Part shown: positions 1,494 through 25,851 of the stretch, piece by piece
How the letters are laid out: each line of letters opens with the position of its first letter
Numbering within the stretch: the stretch's first letter is position 1
Source of the DNA: a virus
IMG/VR virus record: IMGVR_UViG_3300028025_000783
Coordinates: 1-33,079 of that record
Length of the DNA stretch: 33,079 bases
Strand: one strand, 5' to 3'
Notes under the pieces: generated by a model
What the model saw: the letters and a program-made list of their open reading frames with translations, nothing else
Databases searched by the model: none
Told to the model about the DNA's origin: nothing
Program-made: the position numbers and the translations under genes

Positions 1494-2399
1494 TCAACTG
1501 CCGTAACCTGTGTCTGGTATATTAGCCCAGCCAATCAATACAGCACTTGGAGCAGGTGCAAAAGATAAGGTAGCAGAACCCTTATCGTTAGCTTTAGCTA
1601 TTGATAGGTAACGGCTGTAATCTTGTTGCAATGCAGTAGTGTCAAATGACTTAATTTGGAAGTATTTAAGTTTAGTCAGCAATACAATAATTGCGTCATC
1701 TAGTACGGATGTATCGGTATCGACTGTAAAGCTGTTTTTAACAGCATCAGCCGCACTTCTTACCCAGCCCTTAGAACGGTACTCAAATCCTAAATATTCT
1801 TGGGTGTTGTATGGTGGCCATATTTCAAACTTATTGCCTAAGATTCTCCAACGCACCCGTGGGCCTGTTGAAATATATCCTGATTTAAGCCATTGCCATT
1901 GCTGTGCATCAACTGGGCCAAGCATTTGCCAATGTTTAGTTTTGTCCCAATGCGTGTTATCTGTAATGGTTTCGTAGTCGGCAGGTAGGGGGTAAATAGT
2001 CCTACTAAATGTGACTGTACCGCCAACGGATGTTGCTGAAGATAACTGGGTGGTATTTAAGCTAGTTGAAGTAAGAACTGTATCAACATAGGTATCTTGT
2101 GGAACATTTGTACCAACAATAGAGTAGTTGCTGTCCAAACCTGTGGTACTTGGAATGTTATTTAATAGATAAGTACCATCCGTAGTATCACAGGTAGTGG
2201 TTATTGCATTTGTATAGAAACGATATTCCAACTCCAATGCTTGCCAATCGTGTTCCTTAATCAAGTCATACCCTGCACGGTTCATTAACGCAAGAATCTG
2301 TTGCACATCTTGGCTAGTGTTTCCTGCTACATAGGTTGGTACGGCTAAGTTAAGTTCGCTGGTTACTTGTTGTACCAACTCAAGCATTGTTGATGACAT
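1494..2399 (-). CDS. Putative gp4-like head-to-tail adaptor protein
   Basis: A 301-residue protein. The N-terminus MLELVQQVTSELNL with a following ILALMNRAGYDLIKEHDWQ helix is the arrangement seen in portal-proximal adaptor/head-completion proteins of podoviruses (P22 gp4 and T7 gp11-like). Residues about 62-130 are rich in Thr/Ser/Asn and look like an inserted beta domain. The C-terminal part (DDAIIVLLTKLKYFQIKSFD, then a DYSRYLSIAKANDKG helix) matches the helical end of the same family. It is placed directly after the capsid-side genes and before gp10-like, which supports a neck role. Start and stop are one base from the neighbouring gene. The family is inferred from layout and motif style, not from a search. 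Confidence 0.6.
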   Translation of the reverse strand: MSSTMLELVQQVTSELNLAVPTYVAGNTSQDVQQILALMNRAGYDLIKEHDWQALELEYRFYTNAITTTCDTTDGTYLLNNIPSTTGLDSNYSIVGTNVPQDTYVDTVLTSTSLNTTQLSSATSVGGTVTFSRTIYPLPADYETITDNTHWDKTKHWQMLGPVDAQQWQWLKSGYISTGPRVRWRILGNKFEIWPPYNTQEYLGFEYRSKGWVRSAADAVKNSFTVDTDTSVLDDAIIVLLTKLKYFQIKSFDTTALQQDYSRYLSIAKANDKGSATLSFAPAPSAVLIGWANIPDTGYGS

Positions 2400-2400
2400 A

Positions 2401-3048
2401 TTAGGCTTCCTCTGTGGCTACCGCTTTCTTACGGGGTTTTTTCTCACCAACAGCCGCAAGTATAGAAGCCATTTGCTCTTGCATTAAGGCTATCTTCGCA
2501 TCTGTATCTTGCTTTATTTTAGCAGTTTCTAGATCCTTTTTGGCAAGTTCTTCTTTCAAAGCGTTAATTTCTTGCTCACGCTTATCTGTTTCTGCCGCAT
2601 TGGTAGCTAGATTTAAAAATGCCTTTGCTTTATCACGGAACGCAAAAGGGGACATTCCTGCCGCCATTCCCATACGCTGTAATTGCTGATCTGAAGCATT
2701 TGCAATAGATTCAACGGTTTGGAACTTCATTGCTCGTAGTTCTTCAGCTTGGCTTTTTGATACTAAAGGCCATTCTGTTACAGGTGTTCCTACCACTTCC
2801 TGATCGTTTGCCCCTTGTCTATTCATGTAATTAGCCCATTGAATAGGAAAACGGGTTCTATGACTTGCTAGGGCATAAGTGTCGATTTCGGTTAGTGAAT
2901 CACCAGCTACGCAAATTTGGACAAAATCAAAATCTTTAAAGATTGGTCTGCCAGCATCCATTGATTCTTGTTCTTGATGTACTGATCGCTTGTAAAAGCG
3001 TACTTGTAATCGTGAATCTGCATTGTTTTGATCTGAAGGTAAAGCCAT
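2401..3048 (-). CDS. Conserved phage virion-region protein with C-terminal coiled coil
   Basis: A 215-residue protein of a type often found next to the capsid gene of aquatic podoviruses. Residues 1-110 include KDFDFVQICVAGDSLTEID and a GTPVTEWPLVSKSQAEELRA segment; residues 110-150 hold a small helical motif (QTVESIANASDQQLQRMG) resembling helix-hairpin-helix repeats. From about 155 the chain is a charged coiled coil (EQEINALKEELAKKDLETAK) ending in a basic KKPRKKA tail. RBS AGGAG lies 6 bases before the ATG. A rho-independent terminator just upstream separates it from the capsid genes, so it may need its own promoter or read-through. Function unknown; a virion or assembly role is inferred from position only. 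Confidence 0.7.
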   Translation of the reverse strand: MALPSDQNNADSRLQVRFYKRSVHQEQESMDAGRPIFKDFDFVQICVAGDSLTEIDTYALASHRTRFPIQWANYMNRQGANDQEVVGTPVTEWPLVSKSQAEELRAMKFQTVESIANASDQQLQRMGMAAGMSPFAFRDKAKAFLNLATNAAETDKREQEINALKEELAKKDLETAKIKQDTDAKIALMQEQMASILAAVGEKKPRKKAVATEEA

Positions 3049-3083
3049 TTTTAATTCTCCTAAGGTATTAGGTTGTTAAAGGT

Positions 3084-3114
3084 AAAAAGGGGCTACCCGT
3101 TAAGGTAACCCCTC
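3084..3114 (-). terminator. Rho-independent terminator after the capsid genes
   Basis: On the minus strand a 9-bp stem (GGGGTTACC pairing with GGTAGCCCC, one U-G wobble) is followed by TTTTT. It lies 30 bases past the stop of the small capsid-associated gene. The other strand shows the stem followed by CGTTTTT, so it may work in both directions. It would give high-level capsid mRNA a defined end. Confidence 0.82.
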
Positions 3115-3145
3115 GTTTTTACTACATTTTAGCGTTTTAAGCTAA

Positions 3146-3439
3146 TCAAACAGAAGCCTTGCTAAACCAGCCATAATCGCCTGATGCCATTGAAGCACCT
3201 GACAAGTAAGTACCAGCAGAAGGTGTTGCTTGAAAAGTTGATGCGTTAATTGTGCAAGTTGCTGTCGATGCACCAATTGCCGCACCTGCTTGGGCGAAAA
3301 CATAACGGAAACCTGTATTTCCAAATGTTTCAGCACCAAGTGGGCCAAAGGTTGAGATTGCTGTGCCAGCAGAGTTTGTATTTGTGTTAGCCACATTATT
3401 CAAATCTACGCCAGCGATAGGGAGAACGGTATATGCCAT
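3146..3439 (-). CDS. Small virion protein, probable capsid decoration/head protein
   Basis: A 97-residue, Ala/Thr/Ser/Gly-rich protein with almost no charge, beginning MAYTVLPIAGVDLNN. A central FRYVFAQAGAAIGA segment resembles small beta-rich capsid-associated proteins encoded immediately after the major capsid gene in many podoviruses and siphoviruses. RBS AAGGAA lies 9 bases upstream of the ATG. It starts 27 bases after the capsid stop and ends just before a terminator, so it is co-transcribed with the capsid and probably made in large amounts. The decoration role is inferred from position and composition. Confidence 0.65.
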   Translation of the reverse strand: MAYTVLPIAGVDLNNVANTNTNSAGTAISTFGPLGAETFGNTGFRYVFAQAGAAIGASTATCTINASTFQATPSAGTYLSGASMASGDYGWFSKASV

Positions 3440-3466
3440 GATAATTTTCCTTTTCTATGGATGTGA

Positions 3467-3540
3467 TTAAGTACCTGTCAAGATGCCCTGTAAGGAGCAA
3501 TTTGAGCAAGTTAAATTTCCAGCCCAACCATACAACTTCA
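3467..3540 (-). CDS. Major capsid protein, exon 3 (C-terminus)
   Basis: The last exon of the split capsid gene, too short to be called as a gene by itself. It encodes about 24 residues ending LYGWAGNLTCSNCSLQGILT-GT and stop. This is the characteristic C-terminal strand of this capsid family (a WAGN..SN.SLQG pattern after a QDA motif). No start codon or ribosome-binding site serves it; it makes sense only after removal of the 3541-3771 intron. Joining T3772 to the TG at 3540-3539 keeps the frame and leaves an intron ending in G. The junction could be off by a few bases. Confidence 0.8.
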
Positions 3541-3771
3541 CAATCTTTCTGTTACTTCGGCTTTCGCCTACTGACCACTTTCGTGGCGGAGCAACTTCTT
3601 CGAATCGCTCTCTAGGACTTCAAACTACAAGTTATATCCTAGTTCAGACTATCGCTTACCTTTTCAGGCCCATCTCACTTAGTCGTTCACGGTGGCTTTC
3701 GCCTTCCGCCCTGTCATCCCCTTCGGGATTTCCAAGTCAATCAGAGTTGGTTTATAGACACCATTAATGCA
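3541..3771 (-). ncRNA. Group I intron 2 in the major capsid gene
   Basis: About 231 nt, no ORF on the sense strand. P1: exon end ACAT pairs with GTGT at 3754-3757, with a U-G pair at the splice site. P3: CCAACTC with GAGATGG (one mismatch). P5: ATCCC-GAAG-GGGAT. P6: a GGC-GAAA-GCC hairpin. P7: GACTA (3680-3684) with TAGTC (3647-3651), inside the conserved R-like CGACTAAG and S-like GATAGTC boxes. P8: CCT-GAAA-AGG. P9: CTAGGA with TCCTAG. The 3' tail adds GNRA hairpins CCAC-GAAA-GTGG and GGC-GAAA-GCC. The last intron base is G, as required. Boundaries were set by capsid reading frame plus P1 and may shift slightly. Confidence 0.9.
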
Positions 3772-4522
3772 ATGTAGGTTTAGCGTCTTGGTTTATGGAC
3801 TGTCTTTCTCCACCGATAGGAACGAAATTACGCTCTTTGTGTGGACGGAAGAAGATGTAATTAGTATTCAAGAGATACATATATGTAGCTGTTTCTTGAG
3901 CACCAATACCACCACCTAATACCACATCAGCAGACATACCACCACCGTAGAACTTGAGTGAAGCAAAACCTGCCGCACCTTCTTCTACACCAGCAATACG
4001 CTGAATCGCTTGCAAAGAACCTACATAACGCTGATACAAAGTGTTACCAGCAACAATAAGGTCAACCTTATCAGTACCACGAACAGATTTGATAGCGGCA
4101 GAAGTCATTGCGGCGGCAATTAAAGCGGCAGAATCAGCACCAGTAGACGATTGGTTTTGCCAAAACGCCCAGTTAGCACGGTTAATTCCACCGTATGTGC
4201 CAGTTGTATTAGAAACTGGAACTGCGGCCGCCAAACCTGTAATGTTCTTACCACCGTTACCAGTACCGTCACCATAGATGTCAGTAGAGATACGGTTTAG
4301 CAAACGGGCTTCAGAAACTTGCATACGACCATCTAACAGGTCAATGATTGCTTCTTTAGAACTGTTTTGCAACATTTCTAGACCACTCATTGTCACAGAA
4401 TCAGCATACTGAGTAATGCTGTACTGAGCCGCTGAGATAGGGCTATCAGGGGTGATATCCAATACTTCATAGCCACTATAAGAGTTGGCATTATTAGTGT
4501 TTGGATCATTATACATGATCTC
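3772..4522 (-). CDS. Major capsid protein, exon 2 (central body)
   Basis: The main capsid exon, about 250 residues from EIMYNDPNTN to NQDAKPT. It shows the HK97-like capsid sequence seen in aquatic podoviruses: SYSGYEVLDITP, AAQYSITQYADSV, SGLEMLQNSSKEAIIDLL, a STDIYGDGTG loop, IVAGNTLYQRYVGSLQ, then NFVPIGGERQ. An in-frame ATG at 4516 makes it look like an independent gene, but that Met is internal (EIMYN). Joined to exon 1 (4762-4920) and exon 3 (3467-3540) it gives one protein of about 327 residues, normal for the family. Unspliced, the frame would end six bases into the downstream intron with a spurious Leu-His tail. The protein forms the icosahedral shell around the scaffold encoded just upstream. 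Confidence 0.92.
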
Positions 4523-4761
4523 CTCGCCTGTTGTTAATGGTCACTAACTTAACCATGCTTGGTCATTTCTGCCAAACTCTTGGACTTGATTTACTTCAAG
4601 TTATATCCAAGTGCAGACTATCGCTTCACCTTTGCAGGTGTTCTCTCGCTTAGTCGTTCAGGCTGTATTTAAACTTGCCCCTTGTTGTCCCCTTCGGGAG
4701 TTCCAAGTCAATCAGAGAGAATTCTCACATCTGAGTTTTAATTCAGAGTGACCCCAACATT
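4523..4761 (-). ncRNA. Group I intron 1 in the major capsid gene
   Basis: About 239 nt, no ORF on the sense strand. P1: exon end CCTT pairs with GGGG at 4752-4755, U-G at the splice site. P2: possible CTC/GAG hairpin. P3: TTCTCTC with GAGAGAA, 7 bp. P5: TCCC-GAAG-GGGA. P6: GGC with GCC. P7: GACTA (4651-4655) with TAGTC (4616-4620). P8: CACCT-GCAA-AGGTG, a GNRA loop. P9: CTTGGA with TCCAAG, continuing as ACTTGA with TCAAGT. The intron ends in G. Its core is clearly a sister of intron 2 (shared GATTGACTTGGA, GAACGACTAAG and GGATATAACTTG). The 3' end is set by protein frame (VIL then EIMYN). Confidence 0.9.
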
Positions 4762-4920
4762 AAGGATTACATTACCACCTGAGAAGGGCCGTACATTCCC
4801 TTTACTATTTAAACGCTGAAGAATTGCATTGTTTTGTGTCAAGTTATCAGCCAACACTCCGCTACGACTTTGAATAGTAGTGGCGATAATATCGGTGATT
4901 GCACTATTTGCGAATGCCAT
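4762..4920 (-). CDS. Major capsid protein, exon 1 (N-terminus)
   Basis: Encodes 53 residues, MAFANSAITDIIATTIQSRS to FSGGNVIL. This is the start of the capsid family: an N-terminal helix, a GVLADNLTQNNAILQRL segment and a G.V.PFSGG.VI turn that in intact homologues runs straight into the QELEY/EIMYN-type segment beginning exon 2. Unspliced, the frame reads seven codons into the intron (NVGVTLN) and stops at 4738. RBS AAAGGAAATATC lies before the ATG at 4920. Scaffold lies 23 bases upstream. The exon ends in U, as group I splicing requires. Confidence 0.88.
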
Positions 4921-6040: not shown

Positions 6041-6439
6041 CTATCTGTAGTTAAGTTTGGAGTATGCAATCTCAGCTATTTGCCGTTTGCGTTCTTGCTG
6101 TTCTTTTCTTGAAAATTCATGCACTTTTTGCTGGGTTGGCACATCATTACCTAATTCAATACAATTGTTGCGTTTAAGGTTTTCCCTATGTTTTGAACGG
6201 CTAGAAACCCAACTACCATCAGCCATGCTTATATGGCCTTCAATATCAGGCATAACCATCGGGGCTTCTTTTGGGGTCATGTTTAACTTAGCTTGCCACG
6301 CTTCTTCAGCTTCAGGGCTTTCAAACGGAATATTCCAATAAGCAAGGTACTTTTCTTTGTCATCATATTGCGTTGCATCATATTCTTCATGGTCAACCTT
6401 GCAATGTGGGCATTTAACTGTGACTTTGACTAAAGCCAT
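6041..6439 (-). CDS. Zinc-ribbon-containing conserved phage protein
   Basis: A 132-residue protein beginning ALVKVTVKCPHCKVDHEEY; the CPHC pair at the N-terminus suggests half of a zinc ribbon, but a second Cys pair is not clear, so metal binding is uncertain. A central MADGSWVSSRSKHRENLKRN motif and a basic helical C-terminus (FSRKEQQERKRQIAEIAYSK) are shared by small phage proteins encoded near portal and scaffold genes. The ATG overlaps the stop of the upstream glycosyltransferase. Function unknown; assembly role is inferred from location. Confidence 0.6.
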   Translation of the reverse strand: MALVKVTVKCPHCKVDHEEYDATQYDDKEKYLAYWNIPFESPEAEEAWQAKLNMTPKEAPMVMPDIEGHISMADGSWVSSRSKHRENLKRNNCIELGNDVPTQQKVHEFSRKEQQERKRQIAEIAYSKLNYR

Positions 6440-7347
6440 TACATTCTCCTTATGATGTCAGGTAATTGGTCATATTCATTTGGTCTAAGTAGGCAAATAC
6501 TGTCGTACCAACGGGCATTTTTCCACCGCCAGCATACAAATTCCTCTTTAGGAAGCAAAACTACACATTTAACACCCAAAGCACCCGCCAAATGTGCAGT
6601 TCCCGTATCTACAGTAACAATTCCCTTCATTGCCTTCATGTGGGATGCGGTTTGTACCCAGTTTTTCTTCCAACCATCATCAGGAAGTGGGTGAAATAGC
6701 CCATCAGAATTAGGATTTAGCGAATATGCGTCATCCCCGACCAATTCTGCCATGTGTTCATGGGCAATAGACTTAATGTAGTACAAAGTTTGCTTAGATG
6801 CTTCCCAATTTACCCCGATTTTAGGTGGAATATTGCTAGGAATGGCGTGTAAATAGCCTTCTGATCCTACAATTTTCTTGCGTGTTACAGGAAACATTGA
6901 CTTTACGATGGGATGCTGTAACGAAATGTAATACGGTAGCGACATTGAGCCAATCCAATAATCAGATTCTTGTGCAGTACCGTTTCCTAAATCGTTGCTA
7001 AATACATCTACAGCGTGGATTTGACCTAACAAGTGATGAAGGGTGCTTTCTTGCAAAACAACAACCCTAGATGCCCCTAAAGCCTTTAAAGCTGGTAGAA
7101 ATCGGGCAAACATAATAATGTCACCAAAGCCTTGTTCCATCTGTACTGTTATGGTTTTCCCTAATAATGGTTCACCTCTCCATATAGGCATTTTTAAAGC
7201 AGGTGCGTAGGGAACGGCTTGTTTGGCAATAATGTCAGGATGCCAACGGTATTCAAATCCCCTAAAGCCAGCTTCATACCTGCCAGCGTGTAGGTGTTCG
7301 TAAGCTAATTTGTATTGACTGTCAGCGTTTAATGTAGAAGTAGTAAT
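6439..7347 (-). CDS. TPR-glycosyltransferase (GT9-like) with no standard start codon
   Basis: Contains a TPR-like start (ADSQYKLAYEHLHAGRYEAG, then FRGFEYRWHPD) running into a glycosyltransferase fold: WRGEPLLGKTITVQMEQGFG, DIIMFARFLPALKALGASRV and, near the C-terminus, TVDTGTAHLAGALGVKCVVL, the sugar-nucleotide-binding pattern of the heptosyltransferase-like GT9/GT-B class. The first ATG (7191) would remove the whole TPR part. Upstream in this frame there is no ATG, GTG or TTG before a stop. The best candidate is an ATT at 7347 with GAGG about 8 bases upstream, giving 302 residues and an 19-base overlap with the preceding gene. A frameshift from that gene or an assembly error are alternatives. 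Probable role: modifying virion or host surface glycans. Confidence 0.72.
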   Translation of the reverse strand: MTTSTLNADSQYKLAYEHLHAGRYEAGFRGFEYRWHPDIIAKQAVPYAPALKMPIWRGEPLLGKTITVQMEQGFGDIIMFARFLPALKALGASRVVVLQESTLHHLLGQIHAVDVFSNDLGNGTAQESDYWIGSMSLPYYISLQHPIVKSMFPVTRKKIVGSEGYLHAIPSNIPPKIGVNWEASKQTLYYIKSIAHEHMAELVGDDAYSLNPNSDGLFHPLPDDGWKKNWVQTASHMKAMKGIVTVDTGTAHLAGALGVKCVVLLPKEEFVCWRWKNARWYDSICLLRPNEYDQLPDIIRRM

Positions 7348-7797: not shown

Positions 7798-9453
7798 TTA
7801 GAATGTGTACCATTGAGTAGCAGTAGTAGCAACTAACTCAGTTGTTAATCCAGCAACCAATGTAGATGCAGTATTAGTTCCTAAAGCATTGATTTGACCG
7901 CCTGTGGCTGGATAAATGCTTAACACATCAGCACTATCTGAGTTTCTTATTAGGATACGCATACCCGCTACCGCAGTTGGTAGTCTTACTCCAGCCGCAC
8001 CAACCGCTACAACTGTCACATTATTGATATTAGAAACTAATCCAGTAGCCGTTGCTTGTGTTGCACCAGCCGCACTTACTGCCGCAGTAATACTATCAAC
8101 TACTAAACCACTTAAAGTAGTTGTGCTAGTTGCTCCTGATACCGCAGAACCAATGTTAATAGCAGTAGTAGAACCTGATACACCAGTTGTACCAATGTTT
8201 AAAGTTTTAAGGCTACCTGAAGTTGTTGCTCCAGCACCTAATGATACTGTTTGCGCTCCAGTTGAAGTAGCAAGAGTTGTTGTACTAGAACTTGTCAGCG
8301 TTCCGCTAACAGTCGTTGTTCCAACTGTCAAGTTTCCAGCATTAATATTTCCTTGAACACTTAAAGCAACATCTATATTTGCACTACCCTGTACTGCCAA
8401 GTTACCTTGTACTCTAGCGTTGCTAGTTGTATTAAATACATCGGTTACTGCACTTATAGAGTTAGTTGCTGTGTTGTATTGATAAATTGCATCATTAGTT
8501 GGGCCAACTACATAAACACGATTGTCAGCAGTAGAATCAATAAATAAACCTGATGGGGCAATATCTTGAAAGCCAACATAAAAGTTATTTACAAAAGTTG
8601 CGGTGCTGACATTCCATGCAGTTCCTAAATTGTATTCATTAATATCATCACCAGTTTGACCAGTAATCCACATTTTTAAACCATCAGCACTTAAATTTAC
8701 TTGCGTTGGATTTGCTTCTTGAGAAACAACAAAAGAAATACTTGCGTAGGATGCCGTAGATACATCCCAAGGTGTTGCTAAATTATATTGAAATACAGTA
8801 TCAGCAGATGTTCCAATAACATACATTACTGTGCCGTCAGGCTTAAACCATAAACCAGTTGGTGTTCCTTCTTGCGAGGTTACGCTAAACGATTTAGATG
8901 CGTAAGATGCTGTAGATATGTCCCAAGCAGAAGATAATGTGTATTGATAAACAGTATCGTTAGAGCCACCCATAATATACATCGATAAACCATCAGGTTT
9001 AAAGAAAATATCTGCTGGTCCAGCATCTTGTGCTGAAGTAGAAAATACTCTGACATAAGTAGCTGTTGATACATTCCATGCAGTTGATAGCGTATATTGG
9101 TTTACATCGTCACCAGTAGAGCCATTGACATACATATTCAAGCCATCAGGGCTAAGAAATATCCCAGTAGCAGCAGATTCTTCTCCAGCAACAGATTTAC
9201 TTAAACCTGAGTAATCCCACCCAGTAATGCCTGTGTTTGGGGCTATTTCTGCATCAGTTCCGCTAGTAATAATGTCTAATGAAGCAAGCGTTGCAGTACC
9301 ACCAGTAATAGCTACTGCGTTGGCATTTTGCTCTGCCATTGTCCCTAAACCAACTAGGGTATGGTCAGCGTTCCAATCTGATGGGCGAACTAAACTGGTA
9401 TCCGCATCATCAGGAATGGTGCTAACTTTACTGTGCTTGACTAATATGGTCAT
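7798..9453 (-). CDS. Virion-associated protein with five beta-propeller-type repeats and fibre-like C-terminus
   Basis: A 551-residue protein, nearly all Thr/Ser/Gly/Ala/Val. Residues 1-40 (VKHSKVSTIP then LVRPSDWNADHT) are the short attachment-like N-terminus seen in phage fibres. Residues about 91-340 hold five repeats of roughly 51 residues with the pattern G.F..PDGL.MY..G...D.V.QY.L..AWDVSTA.Y, a blade-like repeat related to NHL/YVTN-type propellers. From 340 on it is a repetitive beta fibre (VQGNLAVQGSANID, TLTSSSTTTLATSTGAQTVS) closing with VRLPTAVAGMRILIRNSDSA, a trimeric-tip motif. A receptor-binding or host-attachment role is inferred. Its location beside the portal rather than with the tail fibre gene is unusual. 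Confidence 0.7.
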   Translation of the reverse strand: MTILVKHSKVSTIPDDADTSLVRPSDWNADHTLVGLGTMAEQNANAVAITGGTATLASLDIITSGTDAEIAPNTGITGWDYSGLSKSVAGEESAATGIFLSPDGLNMYVNGSTGDDVNQYTLSTAWNVSTATYVRVFSTSAQDAGPADIFFKPDGLSMYIMGGSNDTVYQYTLSSAWDISTASYASKSFSVTSQEGTPTGLWFKPDGTVMYVIGTSADTVFQYNLATPWDVSTASYASISFVVSQEANPTQVNLSADGLKMWITGQTGDDINEYNLGTAWNVSTATFVNNFYVGFQDIAPSGLFIDSTADNRVYVVGPTNDAIYQYNTATNSISAVTDVFNTTSNARVQGNLAVQGSANIDVALSVQGNINAGNLTVGTTTVSGTLTSSSTTTLATSTGAQTVSLGAGATTSGSLKTLNIGTTGVSGSTTAINIGSAVSGATSTTTLSGLVVDSITAAVSAAGATQATATGLVSNINNVTVVAVGAAGVRLPTAVAGMRILIRNSDSADVLSIYPATGGQINALGTNTASTLVAGLTTELVATTATQWYTF

Positions 9454-11729
9454 TGAACACCTACAATTTTACCGTCTTGACCCCTAATTACTGTTTTGGG
9501 TTGGTTTAGCTTATTCATCATTTCGCCAAGCATCATAGCCATTTGGTTACTGTTGTTGTTAATTGCATTGGCAACGGTTTCCATTGGGTTTTGCATAGCT
9601 TGTGCCATATCCTGCTCGTTAGCGTAGGCCATAGCACCGTCTGAATCATCTGAGCCAATCCTTGCAACTTCAATCTTTGCCCCGTTATTGATGTGTGCCA
9701 ATAAGACTTGAGTATTACGCTCGGTCATCATCTTCATCTGTGCAACTTTAACTTCCATTTCCCGATCCATCATATTGCGTTGTTCTTCTAGTTGGAATTT
9801 AAGCTGGTTCTCTTGGGCTTGATACTCTTGTTTAGCCTTTTCAAGTTCCATCTGCATCTGCATCTTTTGTTGTTCCATCTGCATCTGTGCTTGCATTTCA
9901 GCTTGTTTAGCCTGTGATTGGGCTTGCATCTTAGCCTGATCCATCTGCATTTCTAATTGCATCTTCTGCATTTCAGGTGATGGCGGCTTTGGCTGACCTT
10001 CAGCTTGGGCGGCTTGTTGACGGAACTTATCGGCAGTTTCGTCTATCAAACCTTCTAAACCTTTACCAGCTTTAAACGCTGTTACGCCAAACTTGAGCAT
10101 TTCAATCAGCATAGGAGTAAGTTCAGGTGTAGCTTGTGCGGCAGGAATAGCTTGTTGTAAGAATCCACCCATAGCCTGTAAGAACTCCATGCGATCTTGC
10201 TTTTCCTGTTGCTCATCCTGATAAATCATGGAATCAGTAGTCACTTCGATACGGAAGTTCTTAGCTGGTTCGTTCTTTAAAAGTGCAAGGGCTTGCGGTA
10301 TAAGTTGTTGATCTTGCTGGGATAATTGCATTGCACCGCTAATCTTAACGATAGTATCGTCAGTAAAGTGCTGGCAAATAATCTGTGCTTTGATCTGCAA
10401 TAGGGCGGTAGCAAAGTTCACTACATCGTGTTGCATTGTCTTTAAACGCCCTGAAGCGTTGTTTGACTTAATAATCTGAGCACCAAGAGTTTCGTTAGGG
10501 TCTGTCTGACCACGCTGAATATCAGCAATACCCATGATCTCGTAGATCTGACCTTTAACCTGTTCCATAGCTTGATAAGCCATGTTCAAACCTTCGGCAA
10601 TTGGCTTGATGTCTACAAGGTTAATAGCCCCTACAAGTCCACCTTTTTCGCTAAATGCACCGTAATTCTTAACTGGTAGCAAGGAGTTGTTCTCGCCCTC
10701 TGTAAACAAACGGGCAAGGGATGGTTCAGAAGCGTCATATACGCCCCTAACTTTCAAGGCTTGGATGAATCCATCAATACGATCTGCAAGCGTGTCTAGC
10801 TGTCTTGCTTGGTCTTGGTACAGAACAAAGTCAGGTACAGGAATTAAGCTGTCTGTTGTCAAAGTTGAAAACATCGGCTTTGGGCAAGGCCAAAAGTTTT
10901 CAAGTTTTAGCGGATCAGCACGGGTATCAAGGATCTTACCCAATGACTTATTGAGCCAAATCACTTCACCGCTTGTTTTATCCCAAATCTCATAAACAAC
11001 GGCTTCAGATGAACCTTCGCCCATCTTTTCGTTAAATGTCTTAGAAGTTTCAGGCTTGGTATCTAGCGGAATCTTACCGCCTAATTCTTCACCAAAGCGT
11101 TCAACTAGGGCAGGTCTACCCATGTAAACCTTACGCCATACTGCTGTTACTTCTTCCCATGTACGGGCAACGGTTAAACCAAAATCACGCCAATGTACAT
11201 AATCTACAGGAGCACACTCGTACTCAATGCGTTCTTGATCTTCTTTATGTATGCCACCTTCGGTTTCTGCTTCGTCAATATCTTCTGTAACCTGAAAGCC
11301 ATCTTCGGGAGCACCGTCAGCTTCACCGCCTTCTTCACCGACAATATGCGGTTCATAACGAACCCAAGCTGTACCACGCCCACCAAGTAAACGATCTTGA
11401 ACTGACTGTTTCATGGCACTAGCGTAGTCACCATAATGCTCAATCTCGTACTCTAATGCTCGTTCTAACATCATTGACGCTACACGACCAATTGGGTCAT
11501 TGTCCCTAAATCTGCGGCTTACATCAGGTCTTGGCAACCTTGCAAATACAGCAGGGGTAATGGTTTGGACATTAGACCAAAGGATATTGAACTTGGCGTT
11601 AGGATTGTTGCGACTGCGTTGGTCATCACGATAACGCTTAACAATCTTATCGGCTCGCCCTTCCCATTCCTTAAATGTACGCTCATACTGGGCGATGCAG
11701 TTGTACCAATCGGTGTATGTGTGTTCCAT
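9450..11729 (-). CDS. Portal protein (P22 gp1-like)
   Basis: A 759-residue portal of the P22 type. It opens YERTFKEWEGRADKIVKRYR with ILWSNVQTITPAVFARLPRP, continues with MLERALEYEIEHYGDYASAM and GGRGTAWVRYEP, and includes the acidic insertion (DGAPEDGFQVTEDIDEAE). FVLYQDQARQLDTLADRIDG and IMGIADIQRGQTDPNETLGA are hallmark portal segments. After residue about 560 the chain becomes a Met/Gln-rich coiled coil (MQKMQLEMQMDQAKMQAQSQ and similar), the barrel that projects into the head in P22-like phages. It forms the dodecameric DNA entry ring that docks terminase. The start overlaps nothing upstream; the stop overlaps the next gene by 4 bases. Confidence 0.95.
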   Translation of the reverse strand: MEHTYTDWYNCIAQYERTFKEWEGRADKIVKRYRDDQRSRNNPNAKFNILWSNVQTITPAVFARLPRPDVSRRFRDNDPIGRVASMMLERALEYEIEHYGDYASAMKQSVQDRLLGGRGTAWVRYEPHIVGEEGGEADGAPEDGFQVTEDIDEAETEGGIHKEDQERIEYECAPVDYVHWRDFGLTVARTWEEVTAVWRKVYMGRPALVERFGEELGGKIPLDTKPETSKTFNEKMGEGSSEAVVYEIWDKTSGEVIWLNKSLGKILDTRADPLKLENFWPCPKPMFSTLTTDSLIPVPDFVLYQDQARQLDTLADRIDGFIQALKVRGVYDASEPSLARLFTEGENNSLLPVKNYGAFSEKGGLVGAINLVDIKPIAEGLNMAYQAMEQVKGQIYEIMGIADIQRGQTDPNETLGAQIIKSNNASGRLKTMQHDVVNFATALLQIKAQIICQHFTDDTIVKISGAMQLSQQDQQLIPQALALLKNEPAKNFRIEVTTDSMIYQDEQQEKQDRMEFLQAMGGFLQQAIPAAQATPELTPMLIEMLKFGVTAFKAGKGLEGLIDETADKFRQQAAQAEGQPKPPSPEMQKMQLEMQMDQAKMQAQSQAKQAEMQAQMQMEQQKMQMQMELEKAKQEYQAQENQLKFQLEEQRNMMDREMEVKVAQMKMMTERNTQVLLAHINNGAKIEVARIGSDDSDGAMAYANEQDMAQAMQNPMETVANAINNNSNQMAMMLGEMMNKLNQPKTVIRGQDGKIVGVQ

Positions 11730-25136: not shown

Positions 25137-25435
25137 ACAATAAATGGACAAAAGAGAATTTTGAAATTTATGATGCCCAGCATCCTGATATATGGGAAAT
25201 GTTTAAAAAATTCTCATTACAAGTTGCGGCAAGAAGGCAATACTTTTCAGCTAAGTGCGTATTTCATCGGGTACGCTGGGAAACGGCCATTGGTAATACT
25301 GGGGACTTTAAAATTGATGACGGTTGGATTAGTCATTACGCTAGAAAATTTGCCAAGGAATACCCTGAACATGAGGAGTTATTTCAGTTCAGAGTTCGTA
25401 AAGCAAGCTATCACAACCAATACGCCCCGTTTTAG
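25133..25435 (+). CDS. Conserved phage protein (IRWET family)
   Basis: A 100-residue protein: HPDIWEMFKKFSLQVAARRQ, AKCVFHRVRWETAIGN, GDFKIDDGWISHYARKFAKE and LFQFRVRKASYHN. The pattern W..F...A......SA..V..R.RWET......KI.......YAR.F....P....F..R is a widespread small phage family of unknown function. Last gene of the plus-strand early operon; its stop overlaps the stop of the convergent endolysin gene by 4 bases. Confidence 0.72.
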   Translation: MNNKWTKENFEIYDAQHPDIWEMFKKFSLQVAARRQYFSAKCVFHRVRWETAIGNTGDFKIDDGWISHYARKFAKEYPEHEELFQFRVRKASYHNQYAPF

Positions 25436-25851
25436 GCGATCTGCTTGCCTTCTTTAAGGTCTGTGAGGGTTAGCCCACCCGTGTACTGGAAATGGGCTAA
25501 TTCCTTGAATGAACGCCATCTACCAGCCCATTCCAAACCTGCTTGTTCTCCTAGTTCTCCGATTTTAGCCCATACAGGGTCAGAACCATCCCAATTAGGC
25601 TTGCCATTGACCAAAGGTACGACATCAACAGCACAACGCCAGTTATGCCAAGAATCACCAGCTTTAGCATTGGTAACCACCTTTCCTGCCGTAGTCCTAC
25701 CTTGTTCGTATAAAGCCTGTTGGGATTCATTGTCACGGTATGTTGATGTAACTAGCAAGTCTATACCCTCATCCTTGCAAAGACTAAGAAAGTGCTCTAC
25801 ACGCTCTTTAGCTGGGGGTATCAGGTCATTAAGGCTTCGGCTGTTTAACAT
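25432..25851 (-). CDS. Endolysin: M15-type L-alanyl-D-glutamate peptidase
   Basis: A 139-residue cell-wall hydrolase. LLVTSTYRDNESQQALYEQG, then AKAGDSWHNWRCAVDVVPLV (His and Asp zinc ligands in a SxHxxxxAxD layout) and SFKELAHFQYTGG (third His) define the VanY/M15 fold used by phage T5-type endolysins to cut peptidoglycan cross-bridge peptides. No signal peptide or SAR helix, so it depends on the holin encoded next to it. It overlaps the holin gene by 23 bases and ends against a convergent gene. Confidence 0.92.
   Translation of the reverse strand: MLNSRSLNDLIPPAKERVEHFLSLCKDEGIDLLVTSTYRDNESQQALYEQGRTTAGKVVTNAKAGDSWHNWRCAVDVVPLVNGKPNWDGSDPVWAKIGELGEQAGLEWAGRWRSFKELAHFQYTGGLTLTDLKEGKQIA

Follow-up and report, generated by a model that had tools for sequence, protein, structure and literature searches.

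Two putative ORF-less group I introns in a phage major capsid gene, with relatives in other virion structural genes

The split capsid gene and its predicted product

The window analysed here is a stretch of 33,079 bases that makes up the entire IMG/VR virus record IMGVR_UViG_3300028025_000783, and the carrier of its capsid gene is a freshwater-type phage. Between positions 3467 and 4920 on the minus strand, a capsid reading frame is interrupted at two places by segments without an ORF, which leave a last piece that has no start codon, much as the first-pass annotation had described. The capsid pieces match the major head protein family PHROG 9953 (E=1.3e-69), and are 52% identical to the major head protein of Myxococcus phage Mx8 over 99% of the length. 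A portal gene (PHROG 12082) lies upstream of the capsid gene at 9450-11729, marking a structural module. By homology and by its position in this module, the split gene is assigned as encoding a phage major capsid protein. Elsewhere on the minus strand, an ORF of the late module (6439-7191) resembles by eye a glycosyltransferase or TPR-type protein, and another (25432-25851) resembles a peptidase M15-type endolysin, also by eye. The features of the capsid gene are listed below in the direction of transcription, with the basis of placement in brackets.

4763..4920, minus strand: exon 1, codons 1-53, ending ...GTA ATC CT (intronless relatives, U(-1), P1)
4751..4767, minus strand: P1 of intron 1, exon ATCCT 4767-4763 with guide GGGGT 4755-4751, 5 bp, U.G at the splice site
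4527..4762, minus strand: intron 1, 236 nt, no ORF, starting TAATGTT and ending ...AACAACAGG (intronless relatives; model R1; RF00028 at 20.7 bits)
4738..4740, minus strand: in-frame TAA stop within intron 1, ahead of the ribozyme core, ending the unspliced frame
4616..4655, minus strand: P7 of intron 1, GACTA 4655-4651 with TAGTC 4620-4616, enclosing P3′ and a GCAA-capped P8
3782..4526, minus strand: exon 2, starting C GAG GAG ATC and ending GAC GCT (intronless relatives; PHROG 9953)
3756..3788, minus strand: P1 of intron 2, exon AGACGCT 3788-3782 with guide GGTGTCT 3762-3756, 7 bp, U.G at the splice site
3545..3781, minus strand: intron 2, 237 nt, no ORF, starting AAACCTACATTGC and ending ...GTAACAGAAAG (intronless relatives; model R1)
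3764..3766, minus strand: in-frame TAA stop within intron 2, ahead of the ribozyme core, ending the unspliced frame
3647..3684, minus strand: P7 of intron 2, GACTA 3684-3680 with TAGTC 3651-3647, enclosing P3′ and a GAAA-capped P8
3467..3544, minus strand: exon 3, ATT GTG AAG ... ACT TAA, 25 codons and stop (intronless relatives)

A scan of viral contigs returned more than 590 relatives of exon 2, the best 80 of which were kept as capsid-relative loci; in most of these best 80 the capsid gene is uninterrupted. At the two sites, the codons of the intronless relatives encode NVIL-(E/Q)E-IMYND and DA-IV-KLYGW, and because these codons define them, both exon–intron junctions are fixed, with intron 1 inserted at codon 53 (CCT^C) and intron 2 after codon 301 (GCT^ATT). 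Splicing of exons 4920-4763, 4526-3782 and 3544-3467 is predicted to join GTAATCCT to CGAGGAGATC and CAAGACGCT to ATTGTGAAG, giving a protein of 326 aa with the junctions VIL-EEIMYN and QDA-IVKLYGW. This product aligns without gaps to 62 of 62 full-length, single-HSP intronless relatives within the best 80 of more than 590 (91-98% identical), so that intron removal restores the gene precisely. In-silico removal of the three introns of L214 (4896-6401; codons 53, 71 and 302), or of the two introns each of L158, L064 and L211, likewise yields an ungapped capsid of 326 aa.

The first-pass annotation had placed the junctions at 4762/4522 and 3772/3540, with a 327-residue product and the junction peptides VIL-EIMYN and KPT-LKLYGW. 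Alignment to intron-free capsids, which it had proposed as a check, restored the split gene but refuted both of these junctions, since the relatives read VIL-EE-IMYN (or QE) and DA-IV-KLYGW. It could be argued that the earlier junctions are nonetheless the ones in use, as they too keep the frame open and have U(-1) and a terminal G. However, joining there loses one Glu at site 1 and replaces Ile-Val with Lys-Pro-Thr-Leu at site 2, and neither E for EE nor KPTL for IV occurs in any of the 62 full-length intronless relatives; the P1 pairings would also be shorter. We consider use of these junctions very unlikely. The corrected ends lie upstream by 1 nt (5′ end) and 4 nt (3′ end) at site 1 and by 10 nt (5′ end) and 4 nt (3′ end) at site 2, keeping U(-1) and the terminal G while lengthening P1.

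Group I features and early stop codons

Both window introns, at their corrected junctions, and every examined R1-type capsid intron, at five sites, are preceded by U(-1) and end in G, which the first-pass annotation had noted for the two window introns at its own junctions. P1 was checked base by base at three capsid sites. The same P1 pairing is found in every codon-53 intron with a scored guide (five exon/intron combinations), and a T-to-C change in the guide of L150, L204 and L215 preserves the pair. For intron 2, inspection suggests a candidate P10 between ATTG of the 3′ exon and TAAT beside the guide, while the sequence of intron 1 offers no obvious P10 pairing. On the strand of the gene, neither intron contains an ORF of 60 aa or more, apart from capsid frames running in.

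Relatives were found with a DNA search pattern covering the P7-P3′-P8-P7′ region, with P3, P5, P6 and most of P8 outside the pattern. In a core alignment of 58 relatives, 98.3% of base-pair cells across 28 core pairs are paired, and 19 of the 28 pairs show double-sided changes. The covariation score is 0.495, as against 0.162 for shuffled and at most 0.104 for slid partners. Among these 58 cores, double changes occur in most pairs of P3, P5, P6 and P8 and in a single pair of P4. The P7 GACTA/TAGTC and GNRA-capped P8 reported in the first-pass annotation are both present in the two introns (GCAA in intron 1, GAAA in intron 2), and this P7 occurs in all 58 cores; as it was part of the search pattern, its invariance there carries no evidential weight.

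A covariance model built from this alignment (R1), the training set of which included the window's own two introns, matches intron 1 with 123.2 bits (E=4e-28, 4614-4727) and intron 2 with 122.1 bits (E=8e-28, 3645-3756). Among the 80 capsid-relative loci (best 80 of more than 590), it matches solely those bearing an insertion. The first-pass annotation had looked to the Rfam group I model, RF00028 (Intron_gpI), for confirmation; an Rfam scan gave no hit at its gathering cut-off of 50 bits, which is a curated cut-off and no defining feature of the group I class. Below that cut-off, intron 1 scores 20.7 bits (E=0.015) with its P3-P8 core in register, and intron 2 is unreported by RF00028 even at E<=10. 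Capsid introns of a different subtype in relatives do exceed it (L208, 72.2 bits; L207, 63.3 bits; L101, 53.3 bits). Taken together, the intronless relatives, the core-helix covariation and the covariance model strongly support the assignment of both insertions as ORF-less group I introns, and on these grounds the first-pass claim of a major capsid gene split by two such introns holds.

Phage group II introns exist (PMC12350094), and a group II or other self-splicing class might be considered. This appears exceedingly unlikely given that R1-type introns measure 231-245 nt at codons 53 and 302, that they show a P3-P8 group I topology with a predicted P7 pseudoknot, and that they end in G; moreover, intron 1 resembles RF00028, sister capsid introns of another subtype pass its cut-off, and the Rfam scan gave no group II match.

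Each intron also interrupts the capsid frame early. In unique introns at six capsid sites, an in-frame stop lies within the first 32 nt, before the core, and codon-53 alleles differ in whether it is TAA or TGA. We read the conserved early stops as probable selection against ribosome entry into the ribozyme, which agrees with the picture for T4 introns.

These observations bear on two further readings of the locus. As the contig is metagenomic and each insertion breaks the capsid frame, the gene could be a broken or mis-assembled copy, its segments being neutral insertions or assembly chimeras. Yet the same insertions occur at identical positions in many independent contigs, their ribozyme helices and in-frame stops are conserved, their removal restores an ungapped 326-aa capsid, and covariation is kept, unlike in a dead gene; a broken copy is therefore highly improbable. 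It might also be supposed that the segments are bypassed in translation, as in T4 gene 60, or that the fragments are made separately and co-assemble; exon 2 indeed has an internal ATG at 4516 from which it could be translated alone. We give this very little credence, since exon 3 lacks a start codon and bypassing would need neither a covarying group I core, nor U(-1) and a terminal G, nor guide pairing; the intron family also interrupts unrelated genes.

Our preferred reading, which we hold with high confidence from comparative sequence evidence, is that of a 326-aa major capsid gene (PHROG 9953) carrying ORF-less, self-splicing group I introns at codon 53 and after codon 301 that are mobile between alleles. 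At each 5′ site the transcript would be cleaved behind the U, the site being held by P1 pairing to the intron's guide, with a guanosine bound in P7 probably starting the reaction; the exons would then be joined and the introns would leave with their terminal G. In unspliced RNA, the early in-frame stops would end translation before the ribozyme core. The introns would be mobile parasites spreading between capsid alleles, and one lineage would have spread to new sites in the same gene as well.

Intron positions and spread among capsid alleles

In the capsid genes of relatives, insertions occupy about ten positions, with up to three per gene, near codons 28 (L229), 49 (L208), 53, 61, 71, 83 (L207), 146 (L101), 157, 273 and 302. 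The combination of codons 53, 71 and 302 seen in L214 is also present in IMGVR_UViG_3300032116_001679 (L221 7650-end together with L183 1-1450). RF00028 gives 38.7 bits for the insertion at codon 71 and 23.7 bits for that at codon 28; both are below the cut-off, and their assignment therefore draws on context and these lower values. In L229, an ORF for a GIY-YIG endonuclease lies within the codon-28 intron.

Occurrence of the introns is patchy. On an exon tree from which the insertion regions were excluded, built from a sample enriched for intron carriers, the codon-53 intron requires 13 state changes and the codon-302 intron 12. Ten diverged alleles with the codon-302 intron carry exactly ATTGTGAAGTTGTATGGTTGGGC after the site, and their flanking exon is the same over about 23 nt. 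Over codons 302-308, third-position divergence among intron-bearing alleles is 0.000 versus 0.359 in random sets (0/5000 as low), whereas over codons 121-285 it is normal (0.338 versus 0.348). Identical flanking exon in otherwise diverged alleles indicates horizontal spread of the codon-302 intron, and the pattern is the one that homing with short co-conversion would be expected to leave. Around the codon-53 intron, the co-conversion footprint was not significant (511/5000).

A free-standing HNH endonuclease gene (Pfam HNH_3, PHROG 1872) lies among the structural genes of the window at 867-1487 on the minus strand. A role as the homing partner finds no support: a tblastn search of the fetched loci gave three weak matches only, and no close copy was found in relatives with or without introns. 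Because of this lack of a close copy in the fetched relatives, it is probably a separate mobile gene.

The introns at codons 53, 157 and 273 have a 5′ part in common, which in most of them is TAATGTT-GGGGTCACTC, and group as a single clade (98/96, or 100/99.9 without one partial row). At all three positions the insertion splits a leucine codon as CCT^C, in agreement with the guide. In L234 (5991-7016) the same intron type is present at codons 53 and 273 of one gene, the second copy being cut by the contig end. The presence of one intron clade at three capsid sites shows ectopic spread of a single lineage within the gene. An AU test of a single codon-53 clade, which concerns the direction from codon 53 to 157/273, gave p=0.264. 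The two window introns themselves were considered as a recent mutual duplication, an idea we discarded: they fall in separate clades, and a codon-53 plus codon-302 grouping that leaves out all other introns is disfavoured (AU p=0.017). Counts of CCTC targets on genomic unspliced codons were also set aside as uninformative for intron-bearing alleles, because the first base of the intron is there read as part of the codon.

Host genes of the family and comparison with known introns

The P7-P3′-P8-P7′ pattern was found in at least 120 viral stretches among the matches listed and, across 84,980 prokaryote species represented by one genome each, in two only. These two are in Paenibacillus barcinonensis (L240, near 3121) and a Lachnospiraceae MAG (L239, near 2377). 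The L239 match sits in a tape-measure-like gene by PHROG match, and the frame flanking the L240 match is similar by eye; both presumably lie in prophages.

Outside this capsid family, exon fragments of the pattern-derived loci match the major head families PHROG 1357, 283 and 267, the portal family PHROG 156 and tape-measure families. PHROG 1357 is matched by 14 of 39 downstream fragments among the matches listed, and the 25 most frequent families of downstream fragments, again among the matches listed, include no DNA-metabolism family; such host-gene proportions are rough, being based on pattern-derived loci among the matches listed. The exceptions to the structural-gene bias include an isolate, Roseobacter phage CRP-118 (OR420741.1, L241), where an intron relative lies between two ribonucleotide-reductase fragments (2472-2873); this phage could serve for laboratory work. 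Some intron-adjacent ORFs are HNH endonucleases (L169). A core-based tree with other host genes had too few columns for most forks. At least three model-R1 matches cluster in one region in L106 (5994-7640), L082, L096, L126 and L177, and in L106 three matches interrupt a P22-like coat gene.

The introns belong to a widespread phage lineage that has repeatedly invaded capsid and tail genes. What is unusual is the combination of a small, ORF-less lineage below the Rfam cut-off, a bias towards virion structural genes, and repeated ectopic occupation of one capsid gene. The consequence for annotation is practical: gene callers would report a truncated capsid and an orphan second piece and would miss the third exon. 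The first-pass warning that reading frames alone give a broken capsid is borne out by a deposited genome, MW202674.1 (L242), whose P22-like coat gene appears in the annotation as two coding sequences, with a related intron between them (2185-3700). As the intron family falls below the Rfam cut-off, other phage capsids are probably mis-annotated likewise.

The first-pass annotation had called two introns in one phage capsid gene uncommon. This has to be qualified, as introns in capsid genes, and even more than one per gene, are on record (PMC3706429, PMC7886860) and such genes recur in many contigs of the present phage group. Mycobacteriophage LittleE has a major capsid intron of ~819 bp with an endonuclease ORF, and mycobacteriophages BAKA and Optimus have a tail-gene intron, which in BAKA lacks an endonuclease gene; splicing was demonstrated there by RT-PCR together with the size and N-terminal sequence of the capsid (PMC3706429). 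A capsid intron of lactococcal phage Tuc2009 is mentioned there by way of citation. As in LittleE, a group I-type intron with U before it and G at its end interrupts a major capsid gene here, whereas LittleE and BAKA/Optimus have one intron per gene in a different phage lineage and the present gene has two. In crAss-like phages of the Zeta group, the capsid gene is in several fragments owing to group I introns (PMC7886860). Those were found through intron-encoded endonuclease domains, in large genomes with altered codes; the present introns, at ~237 nt and ORF-less, escape a search of that kind.

Phage genes with two or three group I introns are also known from Bastillevirinae and from Twort, whose tail-tube gene orf142 has three (PMC11878797). 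Bastillevirinae introns average 802 nt and reside in DNA-metabolism and terminase genes, and the same paper asks why introns colonise only such DNA-metabolism genes (PMC11878797). The present family is found mainly in capsid, portal and tape-measure genes, a host-gene preference opposite to that bias.

The closest parallel for ectopic spread is in ribosomal DNA, where ectopic group I introns have been explained by reverse splicing (PMC1299323, PMC3984707) into short targets, with complementarity to P1 over four to six bases (PMC3984707). As in that system, one gene here holds related introns at several positions, and the targets of the guide are short; unlike it, the gene is a phage protein gene and its three sites share CCT^C. 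Reverse splicing and relaxed endonuclease targeting are both possible as the ectopic route. One tentative hypothesis, which we think somewhat doubtful, is that a phage-restricted, ORF-less group I lineage has come to specialise in genes for virion structure (major head, portal, tape measure) and transposes by P1-guided, RNA-level reverse splicing, hence the three CCT^C sites. If true, few natural cases of transposition by P1-guided reverse splicing in a protein gene would precede it. Set against the published capsid introns, the interest of the present family lies in its bias towards structural genes and its ectopic spread.
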